The notes beneath the pieces are model-generated. The model searched no databases. It was not told the DNA's origin and worked only from the letters and a program-made list of their open reading frames with translations. A stretch of 21,999 nt of DNA, taken from positions 1 through 21,999 of IMG/VR virus record IMGVR_UViG_3300008450_000522; one strand, written 5' to 3'. The DNA is from a virus. Each line of letters begins with the position of its first letter. Position 1 is the first letter of the stretch. The position numbers and the translations under genes are program-made. This document shows, one piece after another, positions 2,764-21,999 of this stretch.

Positions 2764-4092
2764 ATGTCAGCACTCTTAACTAAAAATTTCAAAATTTTGA
2801 TGGCAGAACAAGTCTACAACCAGTTGGACTTGGGAGCAAATGCATACTTGCCCGCCGCTAAAAAATCTTATATGTATGCCTTTTTTGGCAGACATTTACC
2901 ATGGAATTCAGGAACCGAAGTAGCAGGATCGCCATCTGAATCGGAATCTGATATAAACAATTTCTACAAATATGGTGTTCTTGCGAAACAAATATCTCTG
3001 GAAAATGCTTCTCTTGTTATTCCTAGAAATAATTGGACAGCAAATACAGTATATAATACATATCAATCAACTACAAACTTTTATATAATAAATTCAAAGG
3101 ATCAAGTTTTTAAGTGTCTCTCAAATGTTGCGCCTGGTACTGCATCTACGGTATCACCAGAATTAACACTATCAACAACTTCACTAGAAGAACCGTACGT
3201 TGAGACTTCCGATTTTTACAAATGGAAGTACATGTACACATTAACATCTACACAAAAACAAAAATTTCTAACCGATGATTGGATGCCAGTATCTGTAAAT
3301 AAGTTTGTACGAGCCGCCGCCGAACCAGGCTCAATTGATATTGTGACTGTAACAAATTCTGGTAATAATTATACTCTCGGTACTGTACAAAACATTATTA
3401 CAATTGAAGGTGATGGAACAGGTGCTGTATTAAAAGCAAATGTTTCTGGTGGTAAAGTACAAAATATAGTTATTCAAAATCGCGGAAATTATTACACTTA
3501 TGCAAATCTAACTTTTACTGATGTTAGTGGTGGCACAGGAACATCGGCGACGGCTGAAGTTTCAATTGCGCCACATAATGGGCATGGATATGAGCCGACT
3601 TATGAGTTGGGTGGTTCCACAATTATGTTTAATGTGGAATTTGACCAAGATGAGGGTGGAGTATTACCCGTTGATAATGATTTTCGTGAAGTTGTGCTTT
3701 TAAGAAATCCATACAAATATGGCACAACAGCATTAGCTACCGCACAAACATATTCTCTATACACTCTTGTTAAAGTTTCGCCCGGCGTTGGCGACTTTAA
3801 CAACGATGAAGTTGTTTATCAAGGAACAACATACGCAAGTGCAACATTTACTGCTGATGTAATTTCATTTAGCGAAACGCCAAACTTATTGTATCTAAAC
3901 AATGTTCGTGGAACATTGCAAACAAATCAAGCCATTAGAGGCCTACAAACCGGCGCTATTCGTATTGTAAATTCCATAACAAATCCCACTCTTGATTTGT
4001 ACTCTGGAAAGATATTATACATATCAGATAAGTTACCAATTACAAGAGACCCAGCCCAAACCGAACGAATTCGTTTCATTTTGAGTTTCTAA
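2764..4092 (+). CDS. 8: Baseplate wedge protein, T4 gp8 family
   Basis: This 442-residue protein looks like the gp8 baseplate wedge family of T4-like phages. Features that recall exo-T-even gp8 are the start MSALLTKNFKILMAEQ, the segment FYKWKYMYTLTSTQKQKFL near residue 152, DDWMPV soon after, and GHGYEPTYELGG near residue 275 followed by a beta-rich end. In T4, gp8 is a dimer linking gp7, gp10 and gp6 in each wedge. This protein is longer than T4 gp8 (334 aa), mainly because of an inserted Gly-rich beta segment at about residues 191-270 with two NY/GY-type repeats. The ATG lies 8 bases after the upstream stop; no strong ribosome binding site is visible, so translation may be coupled. It sits between the gp7-position gene and the DUF4815-type gene, which matches T4-like order. 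Confidence 0.87.
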   Translation: MSALLTKNFKILMAEQVYNQLDLGANAYLPAAKKSYMYAFFGRHLPWNSGTEVAGSPSESESDINNFYKYGVLAKQISLENASLVIPRNNWTANTVYNTYQSTTNFYIINSKDQVFKCLSNVAPGTASTVSPELTLSTTSLEEPYVETSDFYKWKYMYTLTSTQKQKFLTDDWMPVSVNKFVRAAAEPGSIDIVTVTNSGNNYTLGTVQNIITIEGDGTGAVLKANVSGGKVQNIVIQNRGNYYTYANLTFTDVSGGTGTSATAEVSIAPHNGHGYEPTYELGGSTIMFNVEFDQDEGGVLPVDNDFREVVLLRNPYKYGTTALATAQTYSLYTLVKVSPGVGDFNNDEVVYQGTTYASATFTADVISFSETPNLLYLNNVRGTLQTNQAIRGLQTGAIRIVNSITNPTLDLYSGKILYISDKLPITRDPAQTERIRFILSF

Positions 4093-10264: not shown

Positions 10265-10498
10265 ATGCTTGTGAAAGTTGAAGGTACCAATTTTATTAAA
10301 GATACTGGCACAAACGCCCTGTTGATGACGGGGCGGAATGCATTGATTGAAAATGAAGCAAGGAAAAAACTTGCTGATAGGATGAATGGCAAAAATAACG
10401 AGATAAATAACTTGAAGAATCAAGTGGAAGAATTGTCTTCGGATATGAAGGAAATTAAGTCCCTACTAAACGCATTGTTGAAACAGAGTAAAGAATAA
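10265..10498 (+). CDS. Small coiled-coil protein following the DUF4815 gene
   Basis: This is a 77-residue protein. The N-terminal half ([20 protein letters not shown], then [16 protein letters not shown]) is followed by a charged helical C-terminal half with heptad-like spacing (residues about 42-74: [20 protein letters not shown]), typical of a coiled coil. A short protein with a similar start and a coiled-coil end follows the DUF4815 gene in T4-like cyanophages as I recall them, so it is likely a conserved virion or assembly partner. It begins 2 bases after the upstream stop and its TAA overlaps the next ATG (TAATG at 10496-10500), which points to translational coupling on both sides. No enzyme motif is seen; the function is unknown, with an adaptor or trimerisation role inferred. 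Confidence 0.75.
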
Positions 10499-12942
10499 TG
10501 TCAATTAATAACATTACACGAACAAATACGATTGATGAATGGCGCATTCAGACGAATCAATCTGCCGGCGAACTTAATAAAATAGAAACCGGAAATTATG
10601 ATAAGTATGCTGGTTCTCTTAATATTGCATGTACCGCAGTTTTATCCATTACCGCTCAAGGAACTCCGCTTCAAGTTTCAAATAATGCTCTAATTGGCAC
10701 TCAACTTACGGTCGGTAAAGATATTGTTTTAGGATCAGAAGTAGCTCAATCGGGCAATCTTTCTGTTGGAAATACAGTTTATATCTACGGTAGCGCAACG
10801 GCACTTTATGTTGCAAATAATATAATTTCTAACGGCAGTGTTGTTATTAAAAACACTATTGTAGCAAATAATGTAACAGTAAATTCAAACGTAGTTGTTA
10901 TTGGTACAGCAAACGCAGGATATTTAGGTGTAGCAAATAGTGGTTATGTTGGCACAACTTTAACTGTTATTGGAAATACAGCAGTTGGTAATTTAACAAC
11001 AGCAAATTCTGTTGTTGCTGACAATGGTCGTTTTAGTAATAATGTAACCGTAGAACACATTATAGCGGCTAATTCCGTTGTATCCTACGGCGCTAGAATA
11101 ACCAATAACACAACTACAGGCAATTTAAATTCAACATCCGTTGTAGCTGATAATGCAAGAATAACAGCAAACGCAAATGTTGCCCACTTAGTCGCTTCTG
11201 GTTCAGTTGTGGCAGACAGTTTAAGAATAACAAGCGCAACTACTTCCGCTAACATCAGCGGTAATGTTATTGCAGGAAATGTAAATACTCAAGGTATGGT
11301 GTATGCTGGGTCTTTAGTATCCGGTAAGACTGATGTTGGTACATTAACAGCATCATCTTTTGAAATAACCGGCAGCGGCGATGCAACAATTGGTGGTTCT
11401 TTAACAGTAGATGGAAACTTCATACTAAATGGTAGTATTGTTTATGATGCGGATATTTTAACTATAAGCACGGCAGCGCCAGTAACAACTACTGGCGCTG
11501 GATATTTTGGCGTCTGGAGAGGAAATACAATTGGTGGTGTTTCTGGTCATAATGGTCTTTCAAATTCAGACGCAAATGCATATATTCGTTGGAGTGCCTC
11601 TGCTAATAACTGGCAAATCCGAGACATATTCAACTCGGATGCTACCACAACGTATTCTAAAATACTTACTGCAAATCTAATTACCATAAGCACTTCAACG
11701 GTAAGTAATAATGATTTTGCATCTTCATGGTTAATGAAGAACTATGTTGATAACGCAAATACTAATTTAAAAAATTATGTTGATGTTGCTAATACCAACA
11801 TGGGAAATTATGTTGATGTTGCTAATACAAGTGTCGTTAGATATGTCAATACACAAGTTACAGCAAATGTTTTGAATTCTGGTGCCGCGGTTGTTGTCGC
11901 ACAAAACTTTGCTACTGCTGTTGATGATTCTGATCCAGGTAATGGTAATATTAAATTTAATAATGCAACGATTGCATCAGCAACTTTTGCATACATGGAT
12001 AATTTGGACACATATGCACAAACAATTACAGGAATATTGTCCACATATGGCGATTCAACCAATACTGTAAAAGGTCACCTAAGATTTTCCGTGTTTGGTG
12101 CATCAACTACAAAATTTGCAGTTTTTGCTATTGCATCATCAACAGCAGCCTCTGGTTACTATAAAGTTGGTTTGACTTATGTTTCTGGCGCAGGAACATT
12201 TAGTAGTGGCGACCTCGTTATGGTTCAATATTCTAGAGCAGGCAATTTGGGCGCTCAAGGACCAACAGGACCAACAGGACCAACAGGACCACAAGGCGCT
12301 CAAGGAGCCCAAGGACCAACGGGACCTCAAGGACCCACTGGCGCACAAGGCGCACAAGGACCAACAGGACCAGCAGGATCAAATGGCGGTCCAGGACCAA
12401 CAGGACCTCAAGGCGCACAGGGTCCCGCTGGACCAACAGGACCAACGGGACCAACAGGACCAACCGGGGCACAAGGCGCTCAGGGAGCCCAAGGTGCTCA
12501 AGGGGCAACAGGACCATCAGGAACAATTACCAACACAGCTTATCAAATGACTTCTCTTGGTGTTGGCACTCCAGCCGCGGCAGGAACAGGAGACATTCGT
12601 GCAACTGGCTCCATAACTGCTGGTTACTCTGATGATAGATTAAAAACGAGATTGGGTAATATTGAAAATGCTCTTATTAAAATTGCAGCCATTTCGGGAT
12701 TCTATTATGAGCCCAATGAAATAGCGCAAGATTTAGGATATGAATTAAAAAGAGAAGTTGGTGTATCCGCTCAAGAAATTCAAGCAGTTCTTCCTGAAGT
12801 TGTTGTTTCTGCTCCAATAGATGACCAATATTTAACTGTACATTATGATAAACTTGTTCCTTTATTGATTGAATCTATTAAAGAATTGATTAAATCATTC
12901 AAAGATTTGAAAGATGAAGTTGACGAATTAAAGAAGAAATAA
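10498..12942 (+). CDS. Tail fibre with collagen-like stalk and C-terminal S74 self-cleaving chaperone
   Basis: This is an 814-residue fibre. The N-terminus ([20 protein letters not shown], then GELNKIE) looks like an anchor segment seen in structural proteins of T4-like marine phages. Residues about 70-300 are Val/Asn/Ala-rich beta repeats ([18 protein letters not shown] type). [11 protein letters not shown]...NNWQIRDI segment at about 335-378 is a small beta domain. Residues 585-677 are about 30 unbroken Gly-X-Y triplets (GPT, GPQ, GAQ). The C-terminus has [17 protein letters not shown] from residue 710, which fits the Peptidase_S74 / endosialidase intramolecular chaperone: Ser711 and Lys716 have the Ser-Lys spacing of the known catalytic dyad, and the last residues form a coiled coil ([16 protein letters not shown]). 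In the family the chaperone folds the trimer and then cuts itself off before the serine, leaving about 710 residues here. The start overlaps the upstream stop. Confidence 0.87.
12250..12528 (+). repeat. Collagen-like Gly-X-Y coding repeat, tract 1
   Basis: About 30 consecutive 9-base units encode [12 protein letters not shown] and similar triplets without an interruption. The DNA repeats ggaccaacagga and ggcgcacaagga many times. The tract probably forms a triple-helical stalk just before the S74 chaperone. Confidence 0.9.
12628..12645 (+). other. Predicted S74 autocleavage site (Ser711-Lys716)
   Basis: These codons read SDDRLK. In characterised endosialidase-type chaperones, cleavage happens directly before the serine of an S-D-x-x-L-K motif, helped by the lysine five residues later. 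Both residues are present, so self-processing is expected to release a C-terminal piece of about 104 residues. Confidence 0.7.
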
Positions 12943-12943
12943 G

Positions 12944-13276
12944 ATGGCCGCATTTTCAGAAATCGTTATAGAACAAGGCGCAACATTCAACACTACAATT
13001 AATGTTGAAGATACAGCTGGAGCCGCAATTAATCTTTATGGTTATACTGCAAACTCCATGATGCGTAAATCATACTATTCAACAAGTGCAACAACAATTA
13101 CATCCACAGTAACTGGCACAGCAAATGGTGAAGTAACTCTTAATGTGTCGGCGGCTAATACTGCGGCATTAACACCAGGCCGATATGTTTATGATGTAAT
13201 TATTACATCTCCAACATCTGTAGTAACAAGAGTTGTTGAAGGAATTGTGACGGTTCTACCTTCAGTTACGAGGTAA
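12944..13276 (+). CDS. Small beta-sandwich virion protein
   Basis: This 110-residue protein (MAAFSEIVIEQGATFNTTIN, then VEDTAGAAINLYGYTANSMM and GRYVYDVIITSP) has the pattern of a single immunoglobulin-like or BppU-N-like beta domain: a start with 'QGATFN', a 'D..G..I.L.G' turn, and an end with 'pGRYvYDV...'. Such domains are common in baseplate and tail proteins, where they bind or decorate fibres. No cysteines and no signal peptide are present. It starts 1 base after the S74 fibre's stop and ends 2 bases before the next ATG, so it lies in a tightly coupled fibre operon. A role as a fibre connector or decoration is inferred; the exact family is not certain. Confidence 0.7.
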   Translation: MAAFSEIVIEQGATFNTTINVEDTAGAAINLYGYTANSMMRKSYYSTSATTITSTVTGTANGEVTLNVSAANTAALTPGRYVYDVIITSPTSVVTRVVEGIVTVLPSVTR

Positions 13277-13278
13277 TT

Positions 13279-13533
13279 ATGGTTACAGCTAGAATCAATA
13301 CTCCAGGAGTGATTGGTAAAGTTGCTGTTCGTCCAAATCAAAGAACAACAATTGCAGATCCAAAGTTTACACCTAAACCTAATGTTGGTTTAGTTGAATT
13401 GTTTGATACTGCTATTGACCAAGCGGAGGAAGGCGACATTATTACATATGTCTCCAGCACAGGAAAATTTGAAAATCAGCAACTTGGAAATGTAAGTGTG
13501 CAAGTTCCTAGAATAAATGGTGGGTTTTTTTGA
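13279..13533 (+). CDS. Small protein with shared C-terminal GGFF tail
   Basis: This is an 84-residue protein starting MVTARINTPGVIGKVAVRPN. GAGG at 13270-13273, inside the end of the upstream gene, is its ribosome binding site. The middle, FDTAIDQAEEGDIITYVSS followed by TGKFENQQL, resembles the 'G..L.Y....GKF' segment seen in other phage structural proteins. The last residues are PRINGGFF, closely like HLNGGTF of the 549-residue fibre and VKSGGTF of the 187-residue coiled-coil protein further on. This suggests that these proteins share a docking or trimer-end peptide. The stop is TGA after a run of seven T. The function is unknown; a small structural role in the fibre assembly is inferred from context. 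Confidence 0.7.
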   Translation: MVTARINTPGVIGKVAVRPNQRTTIADPKFTPKPNVGLVELFDTAIDQAEEGDIITYVSSTGKFENQQLGNVSVQVPRINGGFF

Positions 13534-13544
13534 CTTACCAAATT

Positions 13545-13552
13545 CATAAATA
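13545..13552 (+). promoter_or_regulatory. Putative T4-type late promoter (CATAAATA)
   Basis: CATAAATAGA lies in the 54-base gap before the 549-residue fibre gene. It is one base from the T4 late consensus TATAAATA. If the motif occupies about -13 to -6, transcription would begin near 13558 and give a leader of about 30 bases holding AAGGAA (13577-13582) just before ATG 13588. Confidence 0.6.
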
Positions 13553-13587
13553 GAATAATAAGAAGATTCCACAATTAAGGAACGATA

Positions 13588-15237
13588 ATGGCAAATACAG
13601 TAATTCAACTAAAATATTCCAGCATAACCAACAAACCGCCTACACTCAATGTAGCGGAACCAGCATATTCCAACGTATCAAGCACTCTTTGGATTGATGA
13701 TGGAACCGGCGTTGTAGCCATTGGTGGTAAAGCATATACCGATAAAATTGATGCCGCAGCCTCAGCCGCGACAGCAAACGTTCTTGTTAAGCGAGATACC
13801 ACAGGTAATGCATCATTCAATTACATTACAGCTAATGTTGTAGGTAGCATTTATGGCAATGCTACAAGCGCAGATAAGTGGTTTACCGCTAGAGATATTG
13901 GTGTTTCTGGTGATGCAACAGGTATCGTTTCAGTTAATGGCACAGTAAACGCTAATATTCCATTAGTTCTTTCCAACTCTGGTGTGGCTGCTGGAAATTA
14001 TGGTGGTGCAACAAATGCCGCAGTAATTTCTGTAGACACAAAAGGTCGTGTAACATACGCGGCTAACGTTCCGATTTCTTCTACACTAAACTTCTCGGGC
14101 GATGTTGGTGCGGCTCCAGGAACATTATCTCTAATCTCCGATACACTAACAATCAAGGGCAGTCTAAACGGCGGTATCAGTACCAATGCTGTTGATGCAA
14201 ACAATACAGTACTTGTTAATGTTGATAATACTGTTCTTAGAAATTCTGGAAATCAATTTATCTCCGGCGACTTGTCATTAACAGGAAGTTTGTTTGTTGC
14301 TGGTAATACCACAACAGTGGATACTACAACAATATCAACAGCAGACTCTTTAATTAGACTAGGCGCAAATAACACAGTAAGCGATGTTCTAGATATTGGT
14401 TTCTATGGCAAAGCAAATACAGGCACAGAAGTAACTCATCACGGTCTTGTTCGTAGAGCAGGAACTGGTAATGACTTCTTCTTGTTCAAAAATTTAAATA
14501 CTGATCCAACATCAAACGTTCTTGCTACAGGTTCAGTAACGGCTGCTAATACTGCTACCTTGAGAGCCAACTTAACTGGCGGTATGATTTCCGCTCTTGC
14601 TAATACTATTGGTGTTGTTGACGGTGGTACTGGCGCAGGCACATTTGCGACTGGTAGTATTCTAGTTGGTGATGGAACAAACTCATTAAAAGTACTTGCT
14701 AATACAGGCACTGCAGGAGCATATGGTTCAGCATCTAATACATTAATTGTTACCACGGATGCATATGGTCGTGTGTCAGCTATTACAAATAGTGCAATTC
14801 AAATTGATGCATCTAATATTGTATCTGGCAAAGTATCAATTGCAAGAGGCGGTACAAACAACGATTCTTACACAACTGGTGCGGCAGTATTCTATGATGG
14901 TACTGCAATCAAGACATTAGCAAATACGGGCACAGCAGGAACTTATGGTTCAGCATCTTATGTTCCTGTTGTTACAACTGATGCATTAGGCCGTGTTTCT
15001 GGTGTAAGCAATACTGCAATCAATATTGATACAAGCGCAGTTGTTTCTGGTACATTAGGTATTGCAAGAGGTGGTTCAGGAGCATCTTCATTCTCAATTA
15101 AGGGTGTTATTGTTTCTGATACATCATCAACAACTGGTGCATTGTCTGCTTTGACTTCACCGACCGAAGGTCACTTATTACAAATTAACTCATCTGGAGC
15201 ACCAACTTTTGCACACCTAAATGGTGGAACATTCTAA
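13588..15237 (+). CDS. Tail fibre with QLK-type N-terminal anchor and GGTF C-terminus
   Basis: This is a 549-residue fibre. The N-terminus (MANTVIQLKYSSITNKPPTL, then STLWIDDG) resembles MANTLIQLK of the 237-residue gene and the Mtd-N-like QLRRG start of the 732-residue gene, so it is probably an anchor domain. Residues about 240-320 hold a DSLIRLGANN...DIGFYGK...HHGLVRR domain whose relative is in the 732-residue protein (DTLIQLGKEN...DIGFIGH...HTGLIRK). The distal part has two copies of a fibre repeat, GTAGAYGSASN..VTTDAYGRVS (near 14707) and GTAGTYGSASY..VTTDALGRVS (near 14932), each followed by an IARGG turn. It ends in LNGGTF. AAGGAA 5 bases before the ATG is a good ribosome binding site, and a late-promoter-like motif lies just upstream. 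It is most likely a trimeric host-binding fibre. Confidence 0.82.
   Translation: MANTVIQLKYSSITNKPPTLNVAEPAYSNVSSTLWIDDGTGVVAIGGKAYTDKIDAAASAATANVLVKRDTTGNASFNYITANVVGSIYGNATSADKWFTARDIGVSGDATGIVSVNGTVNANIPLVLSNSGVAAGNYGGATNAAVISVDTKGRVTYAANVPISSTLNFSGDVGAAPGTLSLISDTLTIKGSLNGGISTNAVDANNTVLVNVDNTVLRNSGNQFISGDLSLTGSLFVAGNTTTVDTTTISTADSLIRLGANNTVSDVLDIGFYGKANTGTEVTHHGLVRRAGTGNDFFLFKNLNTDPTSNVLATGSVTAANTATLRANLTGGMISALANTIGVVDGGTGAGTFATGSILVGDGTNSLKVLANTGTAGAYGSASNTLIVTTDAYGRVSAITNSAIQIDASNIVSGKVSIARGGTNNDSYTTGAAVFYDGTAIKTLANTGTAGTYGSASYVPVVTTDALGRVSGVSNTAINIDTSAVVSGTLGIARGGSGASSFSIKGVIVSDTSSTTGALSALTSPTEGHLLQINSSGAPTFAHLNGGTF
14707..15090 (+). repeat. Twofold fibre repeat (GTAGxYGSAS...TTDAxGRVS...IARGG)
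   Basis: Two adjacent protein repeats of about 75 residues start near 14707 and 14932. Both contain NTGTAG(A/T)YGSAS, TTDA(Y/L)GRVS and S(I/L)..(I/A)ARGG-type turns. This motif is common in phage fibre shafts and marks beta-strand units of the trimer. Confidence 0.7.
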
Positions 15238-15259
15238 ATTATAATGAAAGGATTTTATT

Positions 15260-15823
15260 ATGGATGTGAGATTACAAAATGCTTATGTAGAAGTTTTGCT
15301 TGGCAATTTTATGGAAGTTGTCAAGCAGAATTTAATGTTTCAAGCACAAATTGAAGTAAATAAGAATAGTTTACAAGAAGCAGAAGATTCTGTGAGAAGG
15401 TTAAAAGAAGTTTCTGAAGCGAATATAACATATCAATCTCAACTTGTTGAAAAAGATAAAGTTATAAATCAACTAACGACCGAACGAGATAATCTAAAAA
15501 GTTCTTCCGGAAATAATGATTCTTTGAAACAAGAAAAAGATAGATTGCAAAATGCAGTCAATGACTACATGAGGCAATTAAAATCTGCACAACAAGATGT
15601 GTTGACCGCTAAGAGTGAATCCCAAAATGTTTTAATGCAAAACAATAATCGGATTGAAGAACTCACTAAATATGTTGCAAGATTGGAAACTGTAGTTCCT
15701 GCAAACAAACTTAAAAAAGTTAAACTTGGTGAAGTTGTTCAACCTGATACTCCAGAGATTGCTGTTGAAGAACCAGTTCTTCCAATTGATGATGATATTG
15801 TAAAATCTGGCGGAACATTCTAA
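15260..15823 (+). CDS. Coiled-coil virion protein with C-terminal GGTF tail
   Basis: This is a 187-residue protein. The start MDVRLQNAYVEVLLGNFMEV, followed by VKQNLMFQAQIEV, recalls a small protein of T4-like cyanophages placed among structural genes. From about residue 25 to 145 it is almost continuous charged helix with heptad spacing (DSVRRLKEVSEAN, DKVINQLTTERDNLK, RIEELTKYVARLE), indicating a long coiled coil. An acidic, Pro-rich linker (PEIAVEEPVLPIDDD) leads to the C-terminal KSGGTF, matching the tail of the upstream fibre. It lies 22 bases after that fibre; AAAGGA near 15246 precedes the ATG. It probably co-assembles with the fibres as a scaffold, stalk or assembly factor. No catalytic motif is seen; the function is not known. 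Confidence 0.75.
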   Translation: MDVRLQNAYVEVLLGNFMEVVKQNLMFQAQIEVNKNSLQEAEDSVRRLKEVSEANITYQSQLVEKDKVINQLTTERDNLKSSSGNNDSLKQEKDRLQNAVNDYMRQLKSAQQDVLTAKSESQNVLMQNNNRIEELTKYVARLETVVPANKLKKVKLGEVVQPDTPEIAVEEPVLPIDDDIVKSGGTF

Positions 15824-15833
15824 GATTCGGTAA

Positions 15834-16547
15834 ATGGCAAACACACTAATTCAGTTAAAAAATTCAGGCGCATCAGGTAATACACCAACTACATTATCGC
15901 CGGGCGAATTGGCTATTAACTATGCCGATGGTAAACTGTATTATGGTAATCAAACAAATACCGCAATTTTATTTGATGTTATAACTGAGCCTACTGGACT
16001 AAATCAAGAAATTCAATTTAATGATTCTGGTGCATTTGGCGCATCAGCAAATCTAAAATTTGATAAAACAACAAAAACTTTAACTACCGATAATATTGTT
16101 GCCGGTGAAATCACAAGTAATGTCACCACAAGAATTAGTAATGTTTCAAACTCAGCATTTGCACAAGCAAACTTAGCATACAATGCAGCCAATTCCGCAG
16201 TAACAACTGGACAAGCAAACGTTGGTGCTGGACTAATTGTTGTTACGGGAAGAACAAATTCAGCATTTGGACAAGCCAATTTGGCTTTTGATAAAGCAAA
16301 CTCAGCTAGTGGTTTAGCACAAGCCGCATATGATTATGCTAATACCGTTTCTGTTGGAGGAGGAACTTCTTCATCAGATTATTTTCCAACTGCGCCTTAT
16401 GGTTTTGTTACTGAAAGTTTGGTTGCTCTCGTTTCAGATAATACATTCATACAAGGAGAACTGGCTGGACCAGTTTATGATTGTTCAGATAATCCAGTAA
16501 CACCCGAAGGCTTTTACTTGGAAAAAGACCTTGGCTATTTAACGTAA
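15834..16547 (+). CDS. Short tail fibre-like protein with QLK anchor and FAQANLAY repeats
   Basis: This is a 237-residue protein. The N-terminal anchor (MANTLIQLKNSG, then LSPGELAINYADGKLYYGN) is related to that of the 549-residue fibre. Residues about 57-77 (NQEIQFNDSGAFGASANLKF) form a beta motif that also occurs in the 550-residue fibre. Residues about 100-170 are Ala/Asn-rich helical repeats (SAFAQANLAYNAANSA, SAFGQANLAFDKANSA) and one QANVGAGLIVVT unit, like those of the next gene. The C-terminus (DYFPTAPYGFVTESLVALVS, then IQGELAGPVYDC) has no match I recognise and no GGTF tail. The ribosome binding site is weak; the ATG is 10 bases after the preceding stop. It looks like a short paralogue of the 732-residue fibre with a different tip; the role is inferred. 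Confidence 0.75.
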   Translation: MANTLIQLKNSGASGNTPTTLSPGELAINYADGKLYYGNQTNTAILFDVITEPTGLNQEIQFNDSGAFGASANLKFDKTTKTLTTDNIVAGEITSNVTTRISNVSNSAFAQANLAYNAANSAVTTGQANVGAGLIVVTGRTNSAFGQANLAFDKANSASGLAQAAYDYANTVSVGGGTSSSDYFPTAPYGFVTESLVALVSDNTFIQGELAGPVYDCSDNPVTPEGFYLEKDLGYLT

Positions 16548-16555
16548 CATAAATA
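16548..16555 (+). promoter_or_regulatory. Putative T4-type late promoter (CATAAATA)
   Basis: CATAAATAGA is identical over ten bases to the motif at 13545. It begins one base after the stop of the 237-residue gene. A start near 16561 would leave an 18-base leader with AAGGA (16568-16572) before ATG 16579, a layout very similar to the upstream copy. Confidence 0.6.
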
Positions 16556-16578
16556 GATTGATAATTTAAGGATATTAA

Positions 16579-18777
16579 ATGCCAACGCAATTACAGTTAA
16601 GAAGAGGAAATACAGCCCAAACTGCAACATTTACTGGAGCAGTGGCTGAGATTACCGTTGACACAGATAAGAAAACAGTTGTTGTCCATGATGGCACAAC
16701 AGCTGGTGGTTTTTCTCTTGCTTTAGAATCAGCGCAGTTAGACCAATTTGCATTCACAAAAGCAAACTTAGCGTTTGATAGAGCAAACTCAGCATTCGCT
16801 CAAGCAAATACGGCCTATAGTACAGCTAATACAAAATTCAATTCTGCTGGCGGCACAATTTCTGGTAATGTAATTGTAACTGGTAATGTAACTCCAACAA
16901 CAGATAATGTTTATAGTTTAGGTTCAGTTGGAAATCGTTGGAAAGATTTGTTTGTCGGTCCAGGTTCAATCAACATTGATGGTATTGTTATTGGAAATAA
17001 TGGTGGGCAGATTGTAATCTCCGGCGCATCTGATTTTGTTTTTCAATCAACAACTGGCGCACCTTCCGTATCATCATCGGCTACTGCTAACATTGCGCTC
17101 AATGCTTTCAATCAAGCCAATCTAGCATTCAATCAAGCAAATACTTCTTACGGTTCTTTTGCACAAGCTAACTTAGCATACGCACAAGCAAACTCTGGTG
17201 TTGGTATTGCTGTTTCTGCATTTGCTCAAGCCAACTTAGCGTTTACGGCTGCTAATAATGCTGTGGATACTTGGGTTAGAAATCAAGCTAATGCCGCATA
17301 TGATGCCGCTAACTCAGCAGTAACAGCAGGACAGGCAAACGTTGGTGCTGGACTTATTACTGTTACTTCAGCTTACCAAGCAAACGTAGGTGCTGGACTT
17401 ATTACTGTTACATCAGCATATCAAGCAAACGTAGGCGCTGGACTACTAGCATATCAAACAGTTTCGCAAGCTAACGTTGGCGCAAGTGTAATTACTTTAT
17501 CCAATAACATAACTAATGTATTTAATCAGGCTAATCTTGCTTTTAATGCCGCAAACAATGCTGTAGATACTTGGGTAAGAAATCAAGCTAATGCCGCATA
17601 TGATAGAGGCAACTCTGCTTTCTCTCAAGCTAACTTAGCATACACCACAGCAAATGCCGCATTACCAAAAGCTGGTGGTACAATTACTGGTGACTTGACA
17701 GTTTCGGGTAACTTAGTTATTACTGGAGCTACAACAACACTTAATGTTACCTCATTGAGTGTTTCAGACACTCTTATCCAATTAGGTAAAGAAAATCAAT
17801 CAGATTTGTTGGATATTGGTTTCATTGGTCACTACGCTAATACGCCAAACAATCACACAGGTTTGATTCGCAAATTCTCTGATGGCAAATATTACTTGTT
17901 TGATAATCTGCAAACAAATATTGAACCAACTAATATTATTGATATTGCAAACACAAGAGTTGCAACACTAAGCGCAAATCTAGTTACGAATGTAATCACA
18001 TTGCGCGGACTTGATCCATTAGATTACTCAAATACAATTTATAGTAATGCACAAGCAAATACTGGTGCGGCTGTTATATCTGTAACATCCGCATATCAAG
18101 CTAACGTTGGTTCCGCTAGAATTGATGCGAATACGGCTAATACAACTTTAGCCGCTAGTATTGCATCTGGTAGACAAGCTGATAATGCTAACGTTGGTGC
18201 TAGTATAATTGCAGTCACAAGTGCATATCAAGCAAACGTTGGTGAAGGTCTAATATCAACCGCTAATACTGTAACATTGGCCTATCAAGCAAATACTGGC
18301 GCTGGACTTATTACTGTTACATCAGCATATCAAGCAAACGTAGGCGCTGGTCTAATTACCAAAGTTGATAAAGCTGGTGATGTGATGACTGGTGCATTGT
18401 CTACCAGCGGTGCAATAATTGGTTCAAGTTTAACATCAAATACAGTAGCAACAATTAATACGAATGCAGTTTATGAATCTACTGCTGTAACAACTGCGTC
18501 TGCTACTCAATTTACATTAGATTCATTCTCAACAACTGCATATCGTTCAGCTAAATATCTCGTTCAGATTTCTAGCGGTTCATCATATGAATTACTAGAG
18601 ATGACTTTGATTCACGATGGAACAACTGTGTATTTGTCTCAGTATGGTAATATTAAAACTGGTGCGACATTGGGCGTATTTGACGCTACAATTTCAACTG
18701 GTACTTTAAGTTTGTTAGCTACACCAAACAATGCAGTAACTACATTTAAGACAGCAATAACTCTGATACCGACATAA
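16579..18777 (+). CDS. Long tail fibre with Mtd-N-like anchor and QANVGAG/FAQANLAF repeats
   Basis: This is a 732-residue fibre. The first 55 residues (MPTQLQLRRGNTAQTATFTG, then AEITVDTDKKTVVVHDG) match the N-terminal beta domain known from the Bordetella phage tropism determinant Mtd and many other fibres. Next come Ala/Asn-rich repeats (FTKANLAFDRANSAFAQAN). YSLGSVGNRWKDLF at residue 112 is a common fibre beta motif. Three exact-length 15-residue repeats (QANVGAGLITVTSAY) start at residue 252 and decayed copies recur to about 600. Residues 397-460 hold a DTLIQLG...DIGFIGH...HTGLIRK domain. The last ~100 residues (DSFSTTAYRSAKYLVQISSG, then LIHDGTTVYLSQYG) form a C-terminal domain seen in marine phage fibres. 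AAGGA 6 bases before the ATG and an upstream late-promoter motif suggest its own strong expression. It is likely a trimeric host-binding fibre. Confidence 0.84.
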   Translation: MPTQLQLRRGNTAQTATFTGAVAEITVDTDKKTVVVHDGTTAGGFSLALESAQLDQFAFTKANLAFDRANSAFAQANTAYSTANTKFNSAGGTISGNVIVTGNVTPTTDNVYSLGSVGNRWKDLFVGPGSINIDGIVIGNNGGQIVISGASDFVFQSTTGAPSVSSSATANIALNAFNQANLAFNQANTSYGSFAQANLAYAQANSGVGIAVSAFAQANLAFTAANNAVDTWVRNQANAAYDAANSAVTAGQANVGAGLITVTSAYQANVGAGLITVTSAYQANVGAGLLAYQTVSQANVGASVITLSNNITNVFNQANLAFNAANNAVDTWVRNQANAAYDRGNSAFSQANLAYTTANAALPKAGGTITGDLTVSGNLVITGATTTLNVTSLSVSDTLIQLGKENQSDLLDIGFIGHYANTPNNHTGLIRKFSDGKYYLFDNLQTNIEPTNIIDIANTRVATLSANLVTNVITLRGLDPLDYSNTIYSNAQANTGAAVISVTSAYQANVGSARIDANTANTTLAASIASGRQADNANVGASIIAVTSAYQANVGEGLISTANTVTLAYQANTGAGLITVTSAYQANVGAGLITKVDKAGDVMTGALSTSGAIIGSSLTSNTVATINTNAVYESTAVTTASATQFTLDSFSTTAYRSAKYLVQISSGSSYELLEMTLIHDGTTVYLSQYGNIKTGATLGVFDATISTGTLSLLATPNNAVTTFKTAITLIPT
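17332..17466 (+). repeat. Three tandem 45-base units (QANVGAGLITVTSAY)
   Basis: Units begin at 17332, 17377 and 17422, exactly 45 bases apart and in frame. The first two are complete at protein level; the third diverges after QANVGAGL. DNA identity between units is high, which points to recent duplication or gene conversion. Confidence 0.85.
17392..17441 (+). repeat. 50-base perfect direct repeat, copy A
   Basis: These 50 bases (starting gctggacttattactgttac) are identical to 18301-18350. The two copies are 909 bases apart, a multiple of three, so recombination between them would remove 303 codons without breaking the frame. Confidence 0.85.
18301..18350 (+). repeat. 50-base perfect direct repeat, copy B
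   Basis: This is the second copy of the 50-base sequence at 17392-17441, inside the same fibre gene. It encodes AGLITVTSAYQANVGAG in the same frame as copy A. Confidence 0.85.
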
Positions 18778-18807: not shown

Positions 18808-20460
18808 TTGGCAACAACAAGATTATCAACAGTAATTGGTAACGTCATAGTAGGCGCTACTGGTCCTCAAGGTCCACAGGGGGCTCAAGGTGCTACTGGA
18901 CCTCAAGGCGCACAAGGAGCACAAGGCGCTCAGGGCGCCCAAGGAGCACAAGGCGCTACTGGTCCCCAAGGTGCAACACCAGCCATTGGTGGTTCAAATA
19001 CACAAATTCAATTCAACAATAGTGGTTCATTAGGCGCATCTGCCAACTTAGTTTGGGATGGCACAAATTTGGGGGTTGGAATAAGTTCGCCACTTAGCCG
19101 ATTAGATGTTCGTGCAACGGCGGGTGAATTGGGTAGATTTGCCATTTCTAATTCGGGCGTTGGATATCTTCTTGTTGGAGGTGGGGCATCGACAACTGAG
19201 GGCTTGCGTTTAAGTTATGACAATACAGATGGCTCTTCAAATATCAATAACTTTTATAACGCTTCGTTAAAATTTTCTACTAACAACACAGTTCGTGCCA
19301 CTATCGACTCCAGCGGTAACTTGGGTGTAGGGACTACATCTCCTTCAACTGGTAAATTTAGTGATGCGTCATATGCGTTTTTAATTCAATCTGCAAGCAC
19401 TAGCACAGGCACAAATATTTTTGCCAGCAATTCTGATAACTCAAAATTTGTTGGCTTATGGAGTGGTCATTCAGGGGCAGAGCCTGCAATTGGTGTTAAG
19501 ACTGGTAATGCGTTTACATTTGGTAAATGGGCTGCAATAAACGGGACTGGTGGTTTTACCGAAAATATGCGTATTGACTCTAGCGGTAACTTAGGGTTGG
19601 GTGTTACGCCTAGTGCTACAAGTTCTGGTGTCAAATCGTTTGAACTGCAGGGCGTAGGTTCGGGTCTTGTTTCTTTTGGCAGTGTTGACACGGTAGTAAC
19701 GGCGGGTGCTTTCTATTCTTCCACAGGCTGGAAATATTCAGTAAGTTCATCTGCTGTTTCTTATTATTACCAATCGGCTGGCAAACATCAATGGTTTAAC
19801 GCCGCCTCTGGCACAGCAGGTAATGCGCTCACCGCCACCCAAGCAATGACCCTTGATGCAAGCGGTAACTTAATAGTTGGGGATACATCTTCTGGAAGAC
19901 GTTTCAAAACTAGATTAGATTCGAACACAGTGTATTCATCTTCTGATTTTGAAACTTCATCCCTTCACTACTACATAAACAATGCCAGTTCAACTATTGG
20001 AGCCTACACCGGAATTCAATTTGCAGTAGGAAACAACGGAGATGCGGCAATCTCGGCAATACGCACTGGTGATGGAGAATCAGCATTAACTTTTGGAACT
20101 CGCGGCCTTGGGGTTAGGGGAGAGCGTGTCCGTATTGACTCAGGCGGTAACTTTAGCATTACTCAAACACCGGGTAAATACACAGTTGACGTAACTGGAG
20201 GAGCTACCAGTATTGCTAACGGCGGCACAGTTGATTTTCCTAGTGCGTCAGGAATGCTAGTAGTGAATAATTGGCAAAATGGAGCCGTAACACTATACCT
20301 TTGCGGTGGCGGAGCAGTAACTGTAGTTTCAAACGTCATTGCTCAAGCTGGATCTTTTGCTTATAACAGTGGTATTGGTGGGTATACTTGGACTAATAAT
20401 GTTTATGGTGGAACTGCTACATTTGGGTTCTTCTTTGTCCGAACAAGAACAACAGCCTAA
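18808..20460 (+). CDS. Collagen-containing tail fibre with beta-rich 'DSSGNLGVG' distal part (TTG start)
   Basis: This is a 550-residue fibre starting at TTG (MATTRLSTVIGNVIVGATGP). Residues 16-57 are 14 Gly-X-Y triplets (GPQ, GAQ, GAT). NTQIQFNNSGSLGASANLVW at residue 64 is a motif shared with the 237-residue protein. The distal part has a recurring unit with the core (I/L)D(S/A)SGNLGVG: RATIDSSGNLGVGTTSP, MRIDSSGNLGLGVTP, MTLDASGNLIVGD, VRIDSGGNFSI. This unit is common in tail-fibre shafts of many phages. The C-terminus is hydrophobic and aromatic (TATFGFFFVRTRTTA) and lacks an S74 chaperone. From about base 19060 the codons look more GC-rich than the upstream genes (more ggg, ccc and cgc), which suggests the distal part came from another phage. 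Probable role: receptor-binding fibre. Confidence 0.82.
   Translation: MATTRLSTVIGNVIVGATGPQGPQGAQGATGPQGAQGAQGAQGAQGAQGATGPQGATPAIGGSNTQIQFNNSGSLGASANLVWDGTNLGVGISSPLSRLDVRATAGELGRFAISNSGVGYLLVGGGASTTEGLRLSYDNTDGSSNINNFYNASLKFSTNNTVRATIDSSGNLGVGTTSPSTGKFSDASYAFLIQSASTSTGTNIFASNSDNSKFVGLWSGHSGAEPAIGVKTGNAFTFGKWAAINGTGGFTENMRIDSSGNLGLGVTPSATSSGVKSFELQGVGSGLVSFGSVDTVVTAGAFYSSTGWKYSVSSSAVSYYYQSAGKHQWFNAASGTAGNALTATQAMTLDASGNLIVGDTSSGRRFKTRLDSNTVYSSSDFETSSLHYYINNASSTIGAYTGIQFAVGNNGDAAISAIRTGDGESALTFGTRGLGVRGERVRIDSGGNFSITQTPGKYTVDVTGGATSIANGGTVDFPSASGMLVVNNWQNGAVTLYLCGGGAVTVVSNVIAQAGSFAYNSGIGGYTWTNNVYGGTATFGFFFVRTRTTA
18853..18978 (+). repeat. Collagen-like Gly-X-Y coding repeat, tract 2
   Basis: Fourteen consecutive 9-base units encode GAT, GPQ and GAQ triplets near the N-terminus of the 550-residue fibre. 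Unlike tract 1, the tract lies at the proximal end of its protein. Confidence 0.9.
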
Positions 20461-21108: not shown

Positions 21109-21999
21109 ATGGCATCTAATCAAGACTTCATCATAAAGAATGGGCTAACAGTTGGCTCATCGCAAGTGATTGCAGCCAATGGTCGTTGGGTTGGTGCTAA
21201 TACAGGACTTATTGGTCCACAAGGAAGTACTGGTCCCGCAGGATCAAATGGTCCAACAGGTCCACAAGGAGCGGCTGCACCTTGGGTAGTAGTTACTGCA
21301 AATACTACTGCAACATCAGGTCAACAATTAATTGCAAATACTTATACCGGTGCATTTACAATAACTTTACCAGCTTCACCTTCAGTTGGCAATGTAGTTG
21401 TAATTACAGATGGATATGATTGGACAGTAAATAATTTAACTATTGCTGGTAACGGAAGTACAATTGAAAATTCAGTTAATGATTTGTTAGCTGATGTTAG
21501 AGGTACAACTATTGAACTTATTTACGATAGTTATACTTGGCAAGTTGTATCAACAATTGGTCCAATGGGTAATACTGGTCCACAAGGTCCCATAGGCACT
21601 ACAGGACCAACAGGACCACAGGGCGCACAAGGACCAGGCGGACCAACAGGACCAACAGGACCTCAGGGCGCACAAGGAGCTACAGGTCCTACTGGGCCGC
21701 AAGGCGCTCAAGGCGTAATAGGAGTAACAGGACCAACTGGCGCACAAGGACCCACAGGACCACTTGGACCAACAGGACCTCAGGGTGCAACTGGACCACA
21801 AGGAGCCCAAGGAGCCCAAGGTGCTACAGGTCCTCAAGGCGCAACAGGACCGCAAGGCGCTCAGGGAGCAACAGGAGGTACTGGCCCTCAAGGAGCCCAA
21901 GGAGCCCAAGGCGCACAGGGACCCGCTGGTCCTACTGGCCCTCAAGGAGCAACAGGAACTGCCGCATCAATATCTTTAGGTCCAACAACTACTGGGCCA
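21109..21999 (+). CDS. Collagen-rich tail fibre, 3' end cut by window edge
   Basis: An ATG at 21109 opens a frame with no stop up to the last base, so at least 297 residues are encoded and the C-terminus lies outside. The N-terminus ([20 protein letters not shown], then [13 protein letters not shown]) is typical of structural proteins in T4-like marine phages, where 'QDF.VK.GL.V' marks an anchor. Residues 33-56 are eight Gly-X-Y triplets. Residues 57-150 are a beta domain ([20 protein letters not shown], then [27 protein letters not shown]) commonly found in fibre proteins. Residues 151-285 are 45 unbroken Gly-X-Y triplets, the longest of the window. No strong ribosome binding site is visible. 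The tip is missing here; it may carry another chaperone or receptor-binding domain. Confidence 0.85.
21559..21963 (+). repeat. Collagen-like Gly-X-Y coding repeat, tract 3
   Basis: Forty-five consecutive Gly-X-Y triplets ([12 protein letters not shown]) run without interruption. A shorter tract of eight triplets lies at 21205-21276 in the same gene, separated from this one by a beta domain of about 94 residues. Confidence 0.9.

Follow-up and report, generated by a model that had tools for sequence, protein, structure and literature searches.

Three neighbouring genes of this viral DNA encode fibre-like proteins (P1, P2 and P3) with related N-terminal domains, which raises the question whether their products are alternatives for one site on the virion or successive parts of one structure. 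The window, i.e., the whole stretch of DNA that was analysed, comprises 21,999 nt (positions 1 to 21,999 of the IMG/VR record IMGVR_UViG_3300008450_000522), and the viral record is probably a fragment. T4-like baseplate genes are located upstream (a gp8-type wedge protein, phrog_438, at 2764-4092 and a 2052-aa phrog_358 protein), and comparable gene orders were found in the cyanophages S-SSM7 and P-HM2 and in the pelagiphage HTVC008M. The first-pass annotation had given the starts, coordinates and lengths of P1 (549 aa), P2 (237 aa) and P3 (732 aa) correctly. The features of the locus are listed in Table 1, in which socket denotes an N-terminal domain of the P1/P2 family (class A) or of the Mtd_N family (class B), and plug denotes a C-terminal peptide of the form [DNS]GGx[FY]-COOH (plug A) or D[YLF]Gx[LIV]x-COOH (plug B).

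Table 1. Features of the fibre locus. Positions refer to the window; the terms plug and socket anticipate the putative docking discussed in the text.
Feature	Position	Strand	Remarks
P4, collagen fibre with C-terminal Peptidase_S74 (intramolecular chaperone)	10498..12942	+	Own N-terminus, outside the socket family
84-aa virion-type protein, plug A end ..RINGGFF, before P1	13279..13533	+	Plug codons 13516-13530; GGx[FY] end kept in orthologues
P1, 549 aa: N-terminal class A socket, conserved shaft, C-terminal plug A (..NGGTF)	13588..15237	+	
P1 class A socket domain, subtype EPAYS..LWI (middle-link type)	13588..13725	+	
P1 internal module (residues 225-335), common to P3 369-474	14260..14592	+	45% identity, E 5e-17
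P1 plug A, NGGTF-COOH	15220..15234	+	
187-aa predicted coiled-coil protein, plug A end ..KSGGTF (15806-15820), without socket, directly before P2	15260..15823	+	
P2, 237 aa: class A socket (terminal subtype), C-terminal plug B	15834..16547	+	
P2 class A socket domain (GELAINYADGKLYY)	15834..15974	+	
P2 plug B, DLGYLT-COOH	16527..16544	+	
P3, 732 aa: Mtd_N (class B) socket, repeats, module in common with P1 (17683-18000), variable tip, without plug	16579..18777	+	
P3 Mtd_N (PF18454) socket	16579..16734	+	Pfam E 1e-13; 1yu0 E 9e-15; Foldseek E 1e-4; Mtd homology reaches residue 76
P5, collagen protein, own N-terminus, outside the socket family	18808..20460	+	
P6, collagen protein, runs past the window end, separate N-terminal anchor	21109..21999	+	Anchor common to several tandem collagen genes in relatives

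The N-termini of the three proteins are related, as had been annotated: P1 and P2 belong to one sequence family, and P3 carries Mtd_N, the N-terminal domain of the major tropism determinant (Mtd), a receptor protein of Bordetella phage. Mtd_N is distantly related to the P1/P2 family and is predicted to fold similarly. Compared directly, the P1 and P2 N-termini matched only weakly (41% over 41 aa, E 0.06). Iterative HMM searches with either N-terminus as the seed collected the same number of domains (101), and both searches included P1 and P2 at E about 1e-19 to 1e-23. The P3 N-terminus scored 51.3 bits against the Pfam family Mtd_N (PF18454), above the curated cut-off of 26.3 (E 1e-13), and residues 1-76 of P3 matched the solved structures of Mtd (1yu0, E 9e-15). 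Because no Pfam match was obtained for P1 or P2, these were filed only as a related family and not as Mtd_N; the Mtd_N profile recognized 1 of 46 members of the P1/P2 family, at E 0.06. Pfam and PDB sequence searches with P1 and the class A profile returned nothing useful, and searches with whole P1 and P2 against annotated phages gave almost no matches, so that there was little functional annotation to borrow. Alignment of the class A and class B profiles by hhalign was collinear (E 3e-4, probability 39%), with at most 7% probability in controls using unrelated families or shuffled columns. Moreover, a family of hyaluronidase-type N-domains was matched by both the class A and the Mtd_N HMMs and forms a bridge between the two classes, whose relation is remote.

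The AlphaFold2 models of the N-domains were fairly confident (pLDDT 87 and 82). In Foldseek, the P3 model retrieved Mtd first (E 1e-4) and phage hyaluronidases next; the leading matches of the P2 model were the N-domains of HylP and Mtd, with low scores (Z 3-4, Foldseek E about 0.5-1). The strands of the models nearly coincide in position and the models retrieved the same solved domains, so that the predicted folds are similar; for the P1/P2 domain, the HylP- or Mtd-type fold is tentative given the low scores. The homology of the N-domains supports a common socket family for P1, P2 and P3. It does not extend to the collagen proteins, which had been counted into the same multi-adhesin device: P4, P5 and P6 begin with three other sequences. 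A single anchor for all six fibres was rejected on these differing N-termini and on the absence of a plug from the genes before P4- and P6-type domains. The P6 N-terminus, NQDFIxKNGLTxGS, recurs in several tandem collagen genes per genome (21109-21999 in the window and loci L013, L098, L019 and L029), and their upstream genes are without plugs.

The bodies of the three proteins are not as unrelated as the first-pass annotation had stated for their C-termini. Residues 225-335 of P1 and 369-474 of P3 form a common internal module of 114 aa (45% identity, E 5e-17), and AQANxAY-type repeats are common to P2 and P3 (E 5e-9). P3 matches Mtd at the N-terminus only, its body being composed of repeats and a T4-like module; no match to the Mtd C-type lectin was found in P3. 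Template/variable repeats and a reverse transcriptase, as expected beside a gene targeted by a diversity-generating retroelement like mtd, were not noticed among the ORFs examined.

Inspection of the extreme C-termini revealed short conserved peptides. Four products of the window bear a plug (the 84-aa protein, P1, the 187-aa protein and P2); the 84-aa protein, P1 and the 187-aa protein showed no mutual similarity on alignment, yet all of them end in GGxF. In the first set of loci, GGxF-type ends were present at 100 of 689 distinct gene ends, compared with 0.15 expected from composition. Genes with plug A run up to the last class A socket gene and then stop, and the same plug A pattern occurs in isolated phages, namely Vibrio podoviruses, the cyanophages P-HM2 and S-CBS2 and Limnohabitans phage DC31. 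The gene before Mtd_N ends with DLGGIA in the Bordetella phage BPP-1 (bbp9 before mtd), with DLGSVA in HTVC008M and with DLGYLT in P2 of the window, and the plug B pattern was present in most of 79 newly fetched Mtd_N loci. In many proteins encoded upstream of Mtd_N (in L124, L138, L157, L160, L173, L183 and similar loci) the plug B motif occurs a second time, some 11-14 residues from the C-terminus (DYGLITGAVG..DYGSIA). The 110-aa protein encoded at 12944-13276 (phrog_1084/3304) has a strongly conserved C-terminus of another kind, ..LPSVTR; its relatives in L025 (2029-2436) and L026 (3216-3620) carry an extension ending in DGGTF.

Comparison of plugs with the following genes demonstrated, at the level of the encoded protein ends, a genetic pairing in which the class of the plug matches the class of the next gene's socket. 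The gene immediately before a class A socket ended with plug A at 98 of 125 distinct ends and with plug B at none of the 125, and the gene immediately before Mtd_N ended with plug B at 58 of 80 and with plug A at 2 of 80, these exact fractions being optimistic since the regular expressions were shaped on the same data. Many of the apparent misses were near variants such as NDGSSF, DAGFF, IDGGTFT and EDLGPGLT. Plugs were found in 4 of 403 background genes and in none of the genes before two sets of control N-domains (0/31 and 0/13). Upstream proteins were also collapsed to families, clustered with a coverage limit against merging via low-complexity matches; matched and mismatched classes still differed clearly (Fisher p 5e-15), and this class match across many families is the robust part of the result. 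The same dependence was seen among class A socket genes themselves: the C-terminus was plug B in 23 of 26 cases where the next gene was Mtd_N, plug A in 17 of 18 where it was class A, and plug A in 31 where a coiled coil and then a class A gene followed; 37 of the 38 followed by neither socket nor coiled coil were without plug. Loci were sampled via sockets, and plugs without sockets are therefore under-counted; a GGxF end was observed on two fibre-type genes that have no socket gene next to them (L058 and L079).

These observations make it likely that the products of the genes at 13279-18777 are virion proteins linked in a defined order by a plug-and-socket code. In this reading, the last 5-6 residues of one link would dock into the N-terminal Mtd_N/hyaluronidase-type domain of the next. 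P1, with socket A and plug A, would act as a middle shaft, P2 would be held by its socket A and present plug B, and P3, carrying the tip, would receive plug B in its Mtd_N socket, giving the order 84-aa protein, P1, (187-aa protein), P2, P3. Such head-to-tail docking is the simplest mechanism and would account for the class match, the position of the peptides, the lack of a plug on the last link and the occurrence of plug together with socket on the middle links. Since Mtd and the phage hyaluronidases are trimers, docking would by analogy probably occur trimer on trimer. In line with a chain of structural proteins, the plug protein as well as the socket protein of Cellulophaga phi13:1 is recorded as a virion protein (mass spectrometry). 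Against the chain counts the excess of plugs in the window (four, facing three sockets), so that the 187-aa protein has only a tentative place in it; the role of this protein and the site of the chain on the virion are inferred.

The ordered chain has to be weighed against the model of the first-pass annotation, in which the three fibres have one shared socket and compete for, or mix at, the same virion site. The homology of the N-domains agrees with this model, but the arrangement in related genomes makes it very unlikely. Viral-contig loci keep the order 77-aa protein, P4, 110-aa protein, 84-aa protein, P1, 187-aa protein, P2, P3 and collagen genes. P1-type domains (signature EPAYS..S..L(W/F)I) and P2-type domains (signature GELAINYADGKLYY) co-occur in nearly every relative, and among the 93 related loci that contain at least two such genes, the P1-type precedes the P2-type in 81. 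Such a fixed order of distinct subtypes indicates a sequence of positions and not interchangeable rivals. P1 is nearly invariant (full-length identity mostly 84-100% among close relatives, in some 72%), in contrast to P2, P3, P4 and the collagen genes, whose lengths and tips differ between relatives, and it bears a plug itself; moreover, the plugs before the P2 and P3 sockets are of different classes. These data are better explained by an ordered chain on a single particle than by a set of rivals.

The plug peptides could also bind a common third partner, for example an assembly chaperone or a baseplate protein, their adjacency to sockets reflecting only the clustering of fibre genes. Two or three tagged proteins may indeed precede one socket gene, as do the 84-aa protein, P1 and the 187-aa protein, and the tagged fibre genes of L058 and L079 lie next to no socket. 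We nevertheless regard this explanation as improbable, because the peptide class tracks the class of the directly following socket, also when class A socket genes are considered by themselves, and genes of the same clusters located before other N-domains are without the peptide; a common partner does not predict the switch of class. Finally, the peptides are located at gene junctions, which are sites of module exchange, and might be read as a DNA-level element such as a ribosome-binding or recombination site. This is hardly credible given that the plugs are encoded with all four glycine codons, with TTT or TTC and sometimes TAT or TAC, that the distance to the following gene is highly variable (10th-90th percentile, -1 to 52 nt), and that the conserved unit belongs to the upstream reading frame, whose stop codon marks its end. 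Free codon choice and varied spacing show that the conserved unit is the peptide.

Several fibres joined in a defined order via terminal modules are a feature of anchor-branched receptor-binding protein complexes and of the long-fibre chains of T4. From neither of these do we know of a C-terminal short-peptide code matched to the N-domain class of the next protein. No description of the C-terminal motif was found in a literature search that mostly covered sources outside subscription journals, and the relevant passages of two cryo-EM papers show no similar joint. The closest known counterpart of P3 is Mtd of BPP-1: the two share the homologous N-terminal region and an upstream gene ending in DLGx(I/L)(A/T), and differ in the remainder of the protein. 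The N-terminal beta-prism of Mtd is presumed to attach the Mtd trimer to a tail fibre protein (PMC10743442), and the Mtd literature searched names no peptide partner of Mtd_N; if docking holds, the plug B peptide would be the missing partner. The phage hyaluronidases HylP1/HylP2 (2c3f, 2dp5, 6x3m), trimeric tail fibres whose N-terminal domain is among the leading structural matches of the P2 N-domain model, are similar in that a DGGx end is frequent in the gene that precedes a hyaluronidase-type N-domain. They differ in that P1 and P2 have no hyaluronidase domain, and the structural scores are low (Z about 4).

The hyaluronidase-type N-domains suggest a third class of pairing. DGG was found in the last 13 residues encoded by the upstream gene in 43 of 60 cases, compared with 4 of 131 in the background, the 13-residue limit having been chosen after the data were seen; with the strict limit of 8 residues only 20 of 58 remained. 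This pairing occurs in phages of Gordonia, Arthrobacter, Cellulophaga, Streptococcus and Pseudomonas, and in proteins before the hyaluronidase-type class DGGTP is repeated. The plug-socket rule is common but not universal: not every Mtd_N socket gene has an upstream plug gene, and no recognisable plug precedes the sockets of S-SSM7 (..YVVII), S-SM1 and Rhodococcus phage ReqiPoco6. In an out-of-sample check of bacterial genomes, only 1 of 14 Mtd_N loci had a plug upstream, most of these loci being without a close upstream gene. There is about an even chance that the pairing amounts to an address code across many kinds of tailed phages, in which each peptide class ([DNS]GGx[FY], D[YLF]Gx[LIV]x or DGGx) would be recognised by the matching class of Mtd/HylP-type N-domain, and gene order together with protein ends would predict joins and their order. 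A practical question still awaiting an answer is how modular fibres can be swapped among phages without losing attachment. If true, a readable end-code would make the assembly order of uncharacterised fibre clusters predictable from their sequences, would show how tips can change with the joints remaining compatible, and would point to a likely partner, so far missing, for the N-terminal domain of Mtd.

Some variants were noted in individual loci. In L102 (13351-17940), L190, L195 and L196, cyanophage-type Mtd_N is preceded by hydrophobic ends (..YVVII, ..VTII and ..VWII), which perhaps represent another plug class. The P2 orthologue before the Mtd_N gene in L021 (10001-11014) ends with ..IIDLQQ instead of plug B; DLGLIT is located some 20 residues before this end. 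Finally, small proteins of 65-74 aa that consist of little beyond a class A socket and plug A are encoded in L060 (7321-7518), L076 (811-1008) and L071 (7-231). Minimal socket-plus-plug proteins thus exist, as expected of connectors, and these three are good candidates for structure determination.
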